27,767 nucleotides of DNA, taken from IMG/VR virus record IMGVR_UViG_3300042691_028905, positions 1 through 27,767 of that record. One strand, given 5' to 3'. Positions 993-27,509 of this stretch are shown here, in pieces. A program made the translations under genes and the position numbers. This DNA is from a virus. Under the pieces are notes generated by a model. The model searched no databases. It was not told the DNA's origin and saw nothing but the letters and a program-made list of their open reading frames with translations. Position 1 is the stretch's first letter, and each line of letters begins with the position of its first letter.

Positions 993-1022
993 GCGGGGAG
1001 CCTTGAAACTCCCCGCTTTTTT
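993..1022 (+). terminator. Strong intrinsic (Rho-independent) terminator
   Basis: A perfect 8-bp stem, GCGGGGAG (993-1000) with CTCCCCGC (1009-1016), encloses an 8-base loop and is followed directly by six T residues (1017-1022). It lies inside the head operon, just before the next RBS. It would therefore reduce transcription of downstream genes relative to the capsid gene unless an antiterminator acts. Confidence 0.85.
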
Positions 1023-4284: not shown

Positions 4285-5118
4285 ATGCCATTGCGCGTAA
4301 GAGTGCCGCGCATCGCGGGTGTGAGTGGTGGCGGTGGCATAACCGGCACCGGCTCTGGCACGCTCCCGCTTTCCGGCTCGGGTACTGCGACCGTATTAGT
4401 GACGGGAACAGGTACGGGCACGCTTCCGCTAACGGGAAGCGCGACTGCCACAGTGCTGGTTTCTGGTAGCGCAACTGGCGACCTGCCGCTCACTGGAAGC
4501 TCAACAGCAACAGTAAGCAGCGCCGGTGATTATGCTGCATCTGGCAACTTACCGCTCACCGGAAGTGCAACCGCAACGGTGCTTGTCGCTGGAGCGGCAT
4601 CCGGAAGCCTGCCATTGACGGGCAGTGCGACTGCTGCGGTATTGGTTAAGGGTAACGCCAGCGGCGAATTGCCGCTAACGGGCACGGCTACCGCAACCGT
4701 GCTTGTGCGTGGCACGGCCACCGGTGACTTACCTCTTACCGGAAGCGCGACTGGAACCGTAAGCAGTGCGGGCGGATTTAATGCGTCTGGCAGCCTGCCA
4801 CTGACCGGAAGCGCCACGGCAACCGTGCTTGTGCGCGGCGCGGGAAGCGGAGAATTGTCGCTCACTGGAAGCGCCAGCGCGACAATATCAATACGCGGCA
4901 CTGCAAGCGGAACGTTACCCCTCACGGGCAGCGCAACCGCCACGGTGCTTGTGCGCGGTAGCGCCATTGGTGAAATTTCACTAACTGGCAGCGGCACGAT
5001 GCTTGTGGTTTCGCCAGAGTCTAATATCGCGCCTGCTTTCCGTCGCTCCGGCATTGCTTCCGAAGGCCGCAGGGCTTCTGCTGGCGCTAATGATAGAATT
5101 TATAGGGCAAGGGGTTAA
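4285..5118 (+). CDS. Tandem-repeat protein built of 20-residue beta repeats
   Basis: This is a 277-residue protein. Residues 25-228 are ten head-to-tail repeats with the consensus G-x-L-P-L-T-G-S-A-T-A-T-V-L-V-R-G-x-x-S, and a partial eleventh copy follows. Most units are 20 residues; repeats 3 and 7 are 22 residues and carry TVSSAG in place of TVLVRG. The C-terminus (from about 240) is basic and non-repetitive (FRRSGIASEGRRAS). There are no cysteines, no signal peptide and no aromatic core. The alternating pattern suggests a beta-solenoid or repeated beta-hairpin stalk. An extended fibre or spacer on the virion is inferred. I recognise no named family. Confidence 0.75.
   Translation: MPLRVRVPRIAGVSGGGGITGTGSGTLPLSGSGTATVLVTGTGTGTLPLTGSATATVLVSGSATGDLPLTGSSTATVSSAGDYAASGNLPLTGSATATVLVAGAASGSLPLTGSATAAVLVKGNASGELPLTGTATATVLVRGTATGDLPLTGSATGTVSSAGGFNASGSLPLTGSATATVLVRGAGSGELSLTGSASATISIRGTASGTLPLTGSATATVLVRGSAIGEISLTGSGTMLVVSPESNIAPAFRRSGIASEGRRASAGANDRIYRARG
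4357..4968 (+). repeat. 60-bp imperfect tandem repeats (10 units) coding for the beta repeats
   Basis: Ten in-frame DNA units of 60 bp (two of them 66 bp) encode the protein repeats; a degraded eleventh copy continues to about 5007. The sequence has diverged between copies mainly at third codon positions, so the array is old rather than freshly amplified. Units 3-6 and 7-10 form two copies of a 246-bp block, each opened by a 66-bp unit. Confidence 0.85.
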
Positions 5119-20174: not shown

Positions 20175-20299
20175 ACTTCCTCCTTAATTTTAATTTTCTT
20201 TGCTAGTTTTAGCGCGCGATTACGCATTTTTTTGTCAGCGCAATGAAGCGAAACAAATAATAGCGCAAAGCAAACCAGCTTGTTTTCTGTCCAGCGCAT
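20171..20299 (-). CDS. Tiny membrane or secreted peptide (42 aa)
   Basis: This small gene is easy to miss. The 42-residue product starts [20 protein letters not shown], a positively charged start followed by a hydrophobic helix, and ends in a very basic tail (KLAKKIKIKEEV). Its ATG overlaps the stop of the pentapeptide gene (TGATG) and its TGA overlaps the ATG of the coiled-coil gene (ATGA), as real coupled genes do. A single-span membrane protein or a signal peptide is likely. No family is recognised. Confidence 0.6.
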   Translation of the reverse strand: MRWTENKLVCFALLFVSLHCADKKMRNRALKLAKKIKIKEEV

Positions 20300-20769
20300 C
20301 ACTCACCCCCCTTCTTTTCTCTATGCGCTTTGCACATGGCAAGAAGCGCGTCTTTATGCACAAGCCAAAAATCCAATGCGTCGTCATCCATATCGTTAAT
20401 CACTTCGTCATCAAATGATTCCCAATCCGCGTGCGTATGACGCTGGCAACCAATAACCATAAATCCTTCGGTGATAATAATATTCCACAATAATCCCGTA
20501 AGCATTATTGGAGTGTCATTCAAAATTTCACCACGCAGATTGGCACCTTGCAGATTGGCACCTTGCAGATTGGCATCGACCAGATTGGCACAGTACAGAT
20601 TGGCACCTTGCAGATTGGCACCTTGCAGATTGGCACCTTGCAGATTGGCACCGTACAGATTGGCATCGACCAGATTGGCTTTGTTTGCCTCACACGCATG
20701 GCGCAAAGATTCATATTCACCATCTACCAATATATTTCCCGTAAATCTGTTTTTAATAACTACTCGCAT
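20299..20769 (-). CDS. Pentapeptide repeat protein
   Basis: This is a 156-residue protein. Residues 31-80 are ten perfect A-N-L-x-x pentapeptides ([25 protein letters not shown]), predicted to form about 2.5 turns of a right-handed quadrilateral beta-helix. The N-terminus has [20 protein letters not shown]. The C-terminal part (about 95-156) contains [15 protein letters not shown]-like sequence (here [14 protein letters not shown]) and an acidic segment, ending in [15 protein letters not shown]; a similar C-terminus occurs in phage pentapeptide proteins. DNA mimicry is known for some family members, but no function is proven here. RBS AGGAGG is strong. Confidence 0.88.
20536..20685. repeat. 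Ten 15-bp tandem repeats (pentapeptide-coding)
   Basis: Ten 15-base units, plus-strand CAGATTGGCACCTTG and close variants (CAGATTGGCATCGAC twice, CAGATTGGCACCGTA-type twice), are arranged without spacers. They encode the A-N-L-x-x repeats on the minus strand. Five identical or near-identical copies suggest recent expansion by slippage. Confidence 0.9.
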
Positions 20770-24998: not shown

Positions 24999-25026
24999 TT
25001 GCAAATGGCGATGATTGTGATATAGC
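24999..25026 (+). promoter_or_regulatory. Candidate promoter of the helicase leader
   Basis: TTGCAA (24999-25004), a 16-base spacer and TATAGC (25021-25026) preceded by TGA, which gives an extended -10 (TGnTATA). Transcription would start near 25033, just before the first hairpin of the leader. Confidence 0.5.
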
Positions 25027-25032
25027 AGGCAC

Positions 25033-25114
25033 CTTGCGCGATTGCACCGCGCTCAAAACCTCTTATCGTGTCAGCTGTAGTGCAATTACGGCTGCCACAT
25101 TAAGAGGTTTTTTT
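25033..25114 (+). ncRNA. Structured leader RNA with predicted kissing loops, terminator-like
   Basis: Hairpin 1 is GCGCG/CGCGC (25036-25040 with 25048-25052) with the loop ATTGCAC. Hairpin 2 is a 22-bp broken stem: AAAACCTCTTA (25055-25065) with TAAGAGGTTTT (25101-25111), then GTG/CAC-type pairs (68-70 with 96-98), then eight pairs (25072-25079 with 25087-25094). Its apical loop is GTGCAAT (25080-25086). The two 7-base loops are perfect reverse complements. The 3' arm holds the helicase RBS AAGAGG (25102-25107) and is followed by seven T residues in total (25108-25114). It can act as an intrinsic terminator, an RBS lock or a small RNA. Confidence 0.65.
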
Positions 25115-26488
25115 ATGTCTGATTATAACGCTTTTCTTGAATCCAAGCGACAGCGCTATGCAGATTTTGGCATTAAGCCAATTTATAATCACGATGGCGC
25201 TTTTGATTATCAAAACCACGTTTCGGACTATGCCGTGAGGAAGGGGCGCTGTGCAGTATTTTTAGATACTGGCCTTGGCAAAACCCTAATAGAGTTGATG
25301 GTGGCGCAAAACTACGTCCGGCAATTTAACAGGCCGGTTCTTATTATAGCCCCGCTTGCCGTTGCCTTCCAATTCCTTAAAGAGGCCGCGAAATTTGGCA
25401 TAGACGACATTGAATATAGCCGCGATGGGAAACACAATAAGAAAATTGTGATCTGCAATTACGAGCGGCTGGATAAATTTGATTCAGCCAATTTCTGCGC
25501 GTTCATTTTGGATGAATCCAGCATTTTGAAAAACTTTGACGGGGCGACAAAAAGCAAGGTTACGGCTTTTTTGCGGAAGGCCGATTATCGCTTCTTGTTC
25601 ACGGCCACGCCTAGCCCGAATGATTTTATAGAGCTTGGTACGTCAAGCGAAGCCCTCGGCCACATGGGGTATATGGACATGCTCTCGAAGTTCTTCACGA
25701 ATAACGAGGACACGGTTTCGCCGCAGAAGATAGGAACTAAGTGGCAACTGAAACCGCACGCGACGCGGGACTTTTTTGCATGGGTCTCGAGTTGGTCAAT
25801 ATCCATGCGGAAGCCGAGCGATTTAGGCTTTGATGATTCTCGGCACATTCTTCCCCGATTGGTGACGAATCAAAATATCGTCATCAATAAAAACCTGCTT
25901 TGCCTTAATGGGCAATTCGAGCTTATCGCCAAACCAAGTTCGCGGCTAACTGAAGTGAGGGACGAACAGCGCCAGACCATTCAGGAAAGATGCGAAAGGG
26001 CTGTGGAACTAACGCAGGGTAAGGATTATTCCGTGTACTGGGTAAATTTTAATGACGAGGCGCTGGCCATAAAAGAAATGGACAGAAACGCGCATGAAAT
26101 TAAGGGAAGCATGAGCATTGAGAAAAAGGAAGAGTTACTTCTAGCCTTTGCCGATGGGCAAGTCTCGCGGCTTATCACCAAGCCAAAAATCACATCTTTC
26201 GGCCTAAACTGGCAGCACTGCGCCCACACTGTTTATTTCCCGACCTTTAGCTATGAGCAGTATTACCAATCCATTAGGCGGTTTTGGAGGTTCGGCCAAA
26301 AGCGCGAGGTGGTGGTTGATATGGTACACAGCGAGGGGCAGGAAAAGGTTGTGCAGAGCCTTCTGGCCAAAGCAGAGAAGGCTAACCAGCTTTTTTCAAG
26401 CCTCAATGCATCAATCAATTCTAAATTTACCGACAACAAGAAAGAGTTCGACAAGCAAGTTAAACTTCCATCATTCATAGGAGCATAA
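25115..26488 (+). CDS. SF2 helicase (SNF2/DEAD-like) of the replication region
   Basis: This is a 457-residue helicase. Walker A is DTGLGKT (51-57), motif II is DESS (133-136), motif III is TATP (163-166), and motif VI is QSIRRFWRFGQ (385-395). The N-terminus DYQNHVSDYAVRKGRCAVFL fits SNF2/ERCC-type Q motif and motif I spacing. The methyltransferase gene that follows is a common neighbour in phages. The start ATG at 25115 has AAGAGG 7 bases upstream. The frame is also open upstream to a TTG at 25034, but that part is the structured leader. It probably unwinds or remodels DNA in replication or recombination. Confidence 0.88.
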   Translation: MSDYNAFLESKRQRYADFGIKPIYNHDGAFDYQNHVSDYAVRKGRCAVFLDTGLGKTLIELMVAQNYVRQFNRPVLIIAPLAVAFQFLKEAAKFGIDDIEYSRDGKHNKKIVICNYERLDKFDSANFCAFILDESSILKNFDGATKSKVTAFLRKADYRFLFTATPSPNDFIELGTSSEALGHMGYMDMLSKFFTNNEDTVSPQKIGTKWQLKPHATRDFFAWVSSWSISMRKPSDLGFDDSRHILPRLVTNQNIVINKNLLCLNGQFELIAKPSSRLTEVRDEQRQTIQERCERAVELTQGKDYSVYWVNFNDEALAIKEMDRNAHEIKGSMSIEKKEELLLAFADGQVSRLITKPKITSFGLNWQHCAHTVYFPTFSYEQYYQSIRRFWRFGQKREVVVDMVHSEGQEKVVQSLLAKAEKANQLFSSLNASINSKFTDNKKEFDKQVKLPSFIGA

Positions 26489-26489
26489 A

Positions 26490-27509
26490 ATGGAAACCGT
26501 TAAGCAGCAAGAAGTGACCGAAAACTACGCAATCTATAACAGCGATTGCATGTACGTTATGCCCACCTTACCCGACGCAAGCGTTGACCTGAGCATATAC
26601 TCACCGCCGTTTGCTGGCCTTTACAATTACAGCAGCTCAGAAAATGATTTTAGCAACTGCGATTCAAGAGAGTCGTTTCTGGATCAATACGATTTTTTGA
26701 TTAAGGAAATAGCGCGGGTGACAAAGCCGGGGAGAATTACAGCCGTACATTGCACGGATGTTATGAATAGCAAAACCGAAGAGCTTTGGGACTTCCCGCA
26801 CGAAATTATCCGTATGCATGAAAAATACGGGTTCAAGTATAAAAACCGCATCACCATTTGGAAGGGGCCGCTAAAGGTTCGCATGAGGACAATGGTGCGA
26901 AGTTTGATGCATAAGTTAATCGTGGAGGATTCAACACAATGCTTTACGGCAATGCCGGACTATGTTTTGGTTTTCAAAAAACAAGGCGAAAATTCCGTTC
27001 CGGTCACCCACCCGACCGGACTCACGCACTATGCGGGCGCTATTCCCATTCTGCCAAACATTTTAGAGGCATGGAACAACGCTAACGAGGACAGATTAAC
27101 GGCGGATGAGTTGTGGCAATACCTGAACAATAATTTCCATGACCACGCCGACCCGAAAACCAATAAATTGTCACATTACATATGGCAGCGTTACGCCTCA
27201 AGCGTTTGGGATGATATTAGAATTGATAACGTGCTGCCATTCCGCGACGCCAGAGAAGAAGACGATGAAAAGCACGTCCACCCCCTACAACTTGATGTAA
27301 TTGACCGATTGGTTGAGCTTTACAGCAACAAAGGCGAGGTTGTCCTAACCCCCTTTATGGGCGTTGGTAGCGAGGTTTATAGCCCCGTTAGCATGGGGCG
27401 CAAGGCAATCGGCATTGAGCTGAAAGATAGTTATTATAAACAAGCCGTGATTAATCTGTCGCTTGCTGGCGAAAGATTTACAGAAGCCAAGCAGGTAAGT
27501 TTATTTTAA
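26490..27509 (+). CDS. DNA methyltransferase, beta class (N4-cytosine or N6-adenine)
   Basis: This is a 339-residue protein starting one base after the helicase stop. Catalytic motif IV is SPPF (38-41) in DLSIYSPPFAGLYNYSS. The AdoMet motif I lies at the C-terminus, FMGVGSE (289-295), followed by GRKAIGIELKDSYY. The order IV before I is that of the beta class. SPP favours N4-cytosine, but N6-adenine is possible. The middle holds a target-recognition part (about 110-250). No cognate endonuclease is seen nearby, so an orphan, anti-restriction methylase is likely. The helicase next to it may be a partner. Confidence 0.9.
   Translation: METVKQQEVTENYAIYNSDCMYVMPTLPDASVDLSIYSPPFAGLYNYSSSENDFSNCDSRESFLDQYDFLIKEIARVTKPGRITAVHCTDVMNSKTEELWDFPHEIIRMHEKYGFKYKNRITIWKGPLKVRMRTMVRSLMHKLIVEDSTQCFTAMPDYVLVFKKQGENSVPVTHPTGLTHYAGAIPILPNILEAWNNANEDRLTADELWQYLNNNFHDHADPKTNKLSHYIWQRYASSVWDDIRIDNVLPFRDAREEDDEKHVHPLQLDVIDRLVELYSNKGEVVLTPFMGVGSEVYSPVSMGRKAIGIELKDSYYKQAVINLSLAGERFTEAKQVSLF

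Follow-up and report, generated by a model that had tools for sequence, protein, structure and literature searches.

A likely kissing-terminator leader RNA before a viral helicase gene, with counterparts in many other phages

A helicase gene in the window (the whole stretch of DNA analysed here, 27,767 nucleotides, positions 1 to 27,767 of IMG/VR virus record IMGVR_UViG_3300042691_028905) is preceded at 25033-25117 by a region that can be drawn as two hairpins with complementary loops, which raises the question of whether this region is a regulatory leader RNA, a part of the helicase reading frame or a chance arrangement around an ordinary terminator. The gene encodes an SF2/SNF2-type helicase (ResIII/SNF2-rel/Helicase_C in Pfam; 25115..26488, + strand); a VRR-NUC gene lies upstream, and the next gene in the operon encodes an N6/N4 DNA methyltransferase (Pfam; 26490..27509, + strand). 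An earlier note, made from sequence alone, had allowed that the helicase might begin at TTG 25034, placing the hairpins inside the coding sequence, and the reading frame is indeed open from 25034. However, 13/13 homologues in the N-terminal alignment have their start at the motif that corresponds to ATG 25115, and none carries the extension. The true helicase start is ATG 25115; the extension was ruled out, and the coding alternative is all but excluded. Translation of 25034-25114, which the note had named as a refutation of an RNA element, was thus not borne out.

A promoter-like sequence occupies 24999..25026 (+ strand), with TTGCAA at 24999-25004, a 16-nt spacer and an extended -10 element (TG-a-TATAGC, 25018-25026), from which an RNA start at about 25033 is predicted. 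The first hairpin (H1, 25036..25052, + strand, -7.1 kcal/mol) has a 5-bp GC stem (GCGCG 25036-25040 with CGCGC 25048-25052) and a 7-nt loop, AUUGCAC (25041-25047). A linker, UCAAAA (25053..25058, + strand), which shrinks to 2 nt if its A residues pair with the U tract, leads into an intrinsic-terminator-like hairpin (H2, 25055..25111, + strand, -30.3 kcal/mol). H2 consists of a basal stem of 11 bp (25055-25065 with 25101-25111), a 3-bp segment above it and an upper stem of 8 bp (CAGCTGTA 25072-25079 with TACGGCTG 25087-25094). Its loop, GUGCAAU (25080..25086, + strand), is the exact reverse complement of the H1 loop (7/7; duplex -7.2 kcal/mol), and the MFE structure places two weak pairs (G-U and U-A) within it. 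The Shine-Dalgarno sequence AAGAGG (25102..25107, + strand) lies in the 3' arm of H2, paired with CCUCUU (25059-25064) with a pairing probability of about 1, leaving P(unpaired) at about 0 in the predicted fold. A U7 tract (25108..25114, + strand) ends 0 nt before ATG 25115; H2 and this tract together meet the criteria for an intrinsic terminator (stable stem plus U tract), termination itself being inferred. The predicted fold of 25028-25125 (98 nt) reached -39.4 kcal/mol compared with a shuffled mean of -22.6 (z = -5.5), and 0/200 shuffles were as low.

Several claims of the earlier note could be judged at this point. Two hairpins with exactly complementary 7-base loops were confirmed by sequence and fold, as were the burial of the ribosome-binding site AAGAGG by CCTCTT and the seven T residues before the ATG; the buried site is, however, a peculiarity of the window copy and not a general feature of its relatives. 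The promoter-like sequence is present as a weak consensus match (4/6 + 4/6), which failed the 9-of-12 cut-off of our scan. The assertion that complementary loops would rarely arise by chance was too strong for the window alone: dinucleotide-shuffled copies gave an expectation of 0.17 nearby hairpin pairs with complementary 7-nt loops per strand, and 13% of such copies held at least one. The loop match within the window is only marginally unusual and not decisive, and outside evidence is needed. Searches of viral contigs with the pattern CGATTGCACCG..GTGCAAT gave 29 stretches, none with the window architecture; the pattern CCTCTT..AAGAGGTTTTTTTATG retrieved two terminator-RBS overlaps. TTGCAC as a DNA-level repeat or operator was dropped, as the window showed no clustering of this sequence beyond the two loops.

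The chance expectation lends some support to a plainer explanation, in which H2 is the terminator of the upstream operon, the loop match is accidental and the helicase is transcribed from elsewhere. Plain terminators do precede gene starts at window 993-1022 and in the relative loci L003, L007 and L110. Against this, the U tract runs up to ATG 25115 and leaves no space for a promoter; moreover, the arrangement recurs at the orthologous site far above swap expectation, with compensatory changes and an associated upstream promoter motif, as set out below, and we regard an ordinary terminator as unlikely.

Recurrence was assessed in a helicase-upstream set of about 190 distinct regions from viral contigs, prokaryote contigs and isolate phages. 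Roughly 164 of 187 helicase-homologue regions had no strong terminator at the site, and the helicase-site test comprised 23 distinct strong terminators, each preceding the helicase start by no more than 75 nt. In 16/23 cases the loop of an upstream hairpin was complementary to the terminator interior over at least 6 nt, against a mean of 4.9 and a maximum of 11 in 500 swaps, in which upstream regions were exchanged among loci; at a threshold of at least 7 nt the count was 13/23 (swap mean 1.4, maximum 5; 500 swaps), and a stricter hairpin filter gave 11/20 versus 0.8 expected. A lack of loop complementarity in homologues, the other refutation foreseen in the earlier note, was therefore not observed. 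Loop letters varied between loci and the self-match was retained, as in GUAGGAG/CUCCUAC (L101), GUUGCAG/CUGCAAC (L020 and L201), GUCGAAC/GUUCGAC (L289) and GCUUCGAC/GUCGAAGC (L145, phage hattifnatt9-1). Four loci (L003, L007, L009 and L110) had a terminator with non-matching loops. Upstream of the helicase in L003 and L009, two hairpins with near-identical arms (CCCGA...TCGGG) were seen, the second being the terminator; these arms could exchange, possibly forming a different attenuator at the same site.

Across all gene contexts, about 40 phage loci follow one plan with differing sequences: a promoter, H1, a linker, a terminator H2 with an internal match to the H1 loop, and a start codon no more than 50 nt further on. 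In nearly all members the T tract is found 5-30 nt ahead of the start codon, within an intergenic gap of 80-130 nt, and linkers in other members are commonly, though not universally, about 9-28 nt long and A-rich. Among unselected terminators in the first loci (n = 154), matches of at least 7 nt numbered 16, versus 1.1 in swaps. The genes that follow encode SNF2 helicase, DnaB helicase, DnaD/HTH_36 proteins, HNH/NUMOD4 endonucleases, DUF6291 proteins and, after element L305, an AntA/KilAC antirepressor. Relatives often carry a second element after the methylase gene, and the element also recurs ahead of early genes other than the helicase, in many cases the one that follows the methylase. HNH-type endonuclease genes, which are frequent mobile genes in phages, directly follow six elements (L008, L014, L018, L079, L145 and L302). 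The window copy has the orthologous position, the 7/7 loop match, the terminator and a promoter-like sequence in the expected place; it is atypical in its linker (2-6 nt, compared with 9-28 nt and A-rich in most others), its longer H2 and its weak promoter, and it lacks an AGUA/GAA loop present in part of the class.

Bacteroidota-type promoters are found in most relatives, where a promoter motif lies immediately before H1, the place that the promoter-like sequence takes in the window. Of 33 elements picked by hand, 21 had the Bacteroidota -7 motif TANNTTWG no more than 25 nt before H1 (0.6 expected). An unselected promoter test was based on 246 terminators located no more than 50 nt before a start, of which 39/47 with the motif upstream showed kissing complementarity versus 59/199 without it (Fisher p = 2e-11). 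Within the 47 motif-bearing terminators, decoys scored 9 (reverse), 14 (complement) and 8 (identical), and swaps gave a mean of 9.6 and a maximum of 18. The background of 6-nt matches is accordingly not negligible, at 30% of unpromotered terminators and 8-14/47 in decoys. Most often 3-7 nt separate the end of the motif from the H1 stem, and the RNA should therefore begin at H1, although this start is inferred. Detection thresholds were relaxed after examples had been seen, though each of the swap, decoy and promoter tests applied the same thresholds to real and control sets. Some related elements are present among the swaps and decoys. Some elements also share ancestry, which leaves the counts not fully independent. 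A permissive fold-based detector was dropped, being swamped by chance matches. In loci L087, L303 and L058, a longer stretch of 9-10 nt near the 5' end matches the terminator interior, in one case with a G-U pair, and H1 is weak or absent; such variants may pair without a clear hairpin.

Compensatory changes, which the earlier note had proposed to look for, were seen in relatives, between elements that are otherwise nearly identical. The loop pair CCACGAC/GUCGUGG of L101 and L141 becomes CCACCAC/GUGGUGG in L142 (C-G versus G-C), and UGACCCC/GGGGUCA of L015 becomes UGAUCCC/GGGAUCA in L018 (C-G versus U-A). A formal count was made on five sequences of one subtype (type B) with the drawn structure, including the kissing helix: 98.5% of pairs were standard, and 14/26 pairs had changed on both sides, compared with 5.2 in shuffled and 1-3 in slid structures. 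The kissing helix itself was 100% paired, one of its pairs occurring as CG, GC and AU. Neither the window copy nor one group of homologues could contribute. No relative of the window copy above about 66% helicase identity was present in the collections searched, so that covariation evidence comes from relatives only; L217-L223, whose helicases are 71-89% identical to that of L013, have no such element before the gene and were unusable for covariation.

Little sequence is shared across the class, and what is conserved is confined to subsets. Type A (L019, L020, L079, L080, L130 and L201) has a terminator with AGUA/GAA, which we take to be a loop-E/sarcin-ricin signature, below a 3-bp helix capped by a pairing loop of 6-8 nt. 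Type B has a conserved loop frame, with an 11-nt loop (U/A)GCGUNGUGGC and CCACNAC in H1. In L013, L014, L015, L018, L225 and L289 the pairing strand lies 3' of the inner hairpin. No conserved sequence is common to all members. Loops diverge rapidly even between phages with 98% identical helicases, self-complementarity being kept. About 2.5 kb after the helicase start, L014, L015 and L018 are nearly identical up to H1, after which the element and the following gene all differ; element and gene may thus behave as an exchangeable cassette.

This analysis shows the architecture and its position, the association with a promoter motif and the covariation seen in relatives. We consider it likely that the window element is a promoter-proximal leader RNA of an undescribed phage class, which we call the kissing-terminator leader, and the suggestion of a new phage regulatory RNA in the earlier note is supported; transcript, termination, regulation and trigger remain inferred. 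For the class as a whole, we infer early termination yielding a short RNA, and regulated readthrough into replication or early genes. A dedicated upstream promoter, its motif conserved in relatives and weak in the window, would start the RNA where the 5' arm of H1 begins, or close to that point. H1 would fold, and the emerging H2 loop would pair with the H1 loop to form a kissing pseudoknot, a step supported by comparison and compensatory changes in relatives and inferred for the window. H2 and its U tract would then stop most transcription before the start codon, leaving a putative RNA of about 80-110 nt. If H2 terminates, its placement between promoter and start codon means that expression requires readthrough, and the element would set or switch the helicase and methylase.

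In the window, AAGAGG lies inside H2, and a readthrough RNA would therefore also be translationally locked until H2 opens. Full pairing of this site in the predicted fold favours a purely translational lock, in which H2 sequesters AAGAGG, a phage factor opens it and transcription plays no role. This is very unlikely given the U7 tract immediately after the stem, and given that H2 in other members is terminator-like with a U tract, lacks comparable burial of the ribosome-binding site and mostly follows Bacteroidota-type promoters. For the kissing-terminator leader of the window, helix geometry suggests a switch. As long as the basal stem is closed, the 5-bp H1 on its short tether cannot span the roughly 22 bp to the H2 loop; opening of that stem would lengthen the tether to about 15 nt, enough for H1 to reach the loop. 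The window linker is too short for kissing with a closed basal stem, which makes alternative states probable, an inference restricted to this copy: kissing (basal stem open, ribosome-binding site and readthrough free) would be ON and full H2 (ribosome-binding site buried) OFF. Candidate triggers would be a phage antiterminator, time or a short RNA in trans.

The earlier note had listed an attenuator, a translational lock and a small RNA of about 82 nt; with the pure lock disfavoured, attenuator and independent small RNA remain unresolved, and the anatomy fits one RNA that would do both. As a possible alternative, the short terminated RNA would be the product and the downstream start codon incidental. 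The partners of its loops would be other RNAs, hypothetically including a copy of the leader carried by a superinfecting or sister genome, and the outcome would be P4/C4-like RNA immunity or copy control. An own promoter and own terminator speak for this, as do phage RNAs known to be of similar style (P4 CI and IsrK; PMC4825925). Rapid loop change with kept self-complementarity and loops that differ between elements of one genome are also as expected of a self-specificity determinant: the isolated phage hattifnatt9-1 of Flavobacterium sp. LMO9, accession MN812207, has three elements with mutually non-matching loops, their predicted 3' ends being at about 9459, 13388 and 14442, and cross-matches between elements of one genome do not exceed 4 nt. 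On the other hand, placement 5-30 nt from a start codon in nearly all members favours cis control, and linkers of 9-28 nt favour intramolecular pairing.

Membership in a named RNA family is unsupported; the element would behave like a promoter-proximal attenuator or a terminated-leader small RNA. Searching the window against Rfam 15 (E <= 10) returned nothing but miRNA and snoRNA models scoring far under the cut-off, without c4 (RF01695) or int-alpA (RF02996), and no element in 25 relative loci reached a gathering score. The earlier statement that no named riboswitch class is recognised therefore held. The requirement for a metabolite riboswitch was unmet, no class-wide conserved ligand-binding nucleotides being seen outside the helices. 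No description of such a class was found in the literature searched, which did not cover Weinberg 2017.

By analogy, the nearest systems in behaviour are IsrK and P4 CI (PMC4825925). IsrK, from the Salmonella prophage Gifsy-1, has its own promoter, its terminated form being a small RNA and its readthrough form the mRNA for an early regulator (PMC4825925). The leader resembles it in its predicted own promoter, in the inferred short and readthrough forms and in RNA pairing that would control a downstream gene, with the antirepressor gene after L305 as a parallel; trans action of the leader is hypothetical. Unlike the leader, IsrK base-pairs over a long segment of orf45, which lies downstream; a match to its terminator loop in another loop has not been described, and no sequence link with the window element is shown. 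P4 CI/seqA-seqC and P1/P7 c4 (RF01695) likewise combine short complementary stretches in one leader region with premature termination before early or replication genes. They act through a separate processed antisense RNA in trans, whereas the window element has neighbouring hairpins in one short RNA, and the Rfam c4 model matched neither window nor relatives. The int-alpA RNA (RF02996) is a phage-associated small RNA with a terminator-like 3' stem, but has a branched outer stem, two inner hairpins and no separate H1. The sole Rfam match among the relative loci was an int-alpA copy in L147 (37.0 bits, cut-off 35.8), a separate RNA that adjoins a kissing element. This copy, at L147 3090-3157 in virus ctsTn925, lies just before the start of a parB-like gene, and the sequence directly following its U tract, UUGGAC, is a match to its second loop, GUCCAA.

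Kissing hairpins of the ColE1 RNAI-RNAII and FinP type have fully complementary 7-nt loops, and a terminator hairpin can be one of the partners. There, however, the partners lie on two antisense RNAs, whereas both lie on one RNA in the leader class. Loop-loop pairing in replication-gene leaders controls ribosome-binding-site access or termination in the IncI/IncB repZ leader pseudoknot and pT181-type attenuators; these differ in their anatomy, in control by an opposite-strand antisense RNA and in belonging to plasmids rather than phages.

A bolder reading, which falls a little short of what we would favour, is that of a widespread undescribed phage RNA class, in which the hairpin next to the promoter reads the terminator loop of the same RNA and fast-diversifying self-complementary loops provide several orthogonal switches per genome before replication and early genes, possibly also serving as self-specific trans-acting immunity RNAs. 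If this is true, early and replication genes in many tailed phages, cultured Flavobacterium phages among them, are controlled by a small structured RNA, and single genomes offer natural sets of orthogonal leader switches. The absence of such an RNA from RNA libraries would then probably reflect conservation of only the two-loop self-match, not of sequence. Whether loop-loop pairing promotes or prevents termination is a question that this raises.

Three further features of the window were recorded. A strong terminator at 993-1022 (GCGGGGAG-CCTTGAAA-CTCCCCGC-T6), a few nucleotides before the next gene (start 1025 or 1031), has no complementary upstream loop and represents a plain counterpart of the element. 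A pentapeptide-repeat-like protein with NLQGA repeats, possibly a DNA mimic, is encoded at 20299-20769 (- strand), and a highly repetitive protein (LPLTGSATATVLV repeats) is encoded at 4285-5118 (+ strand) within the structural gene block.
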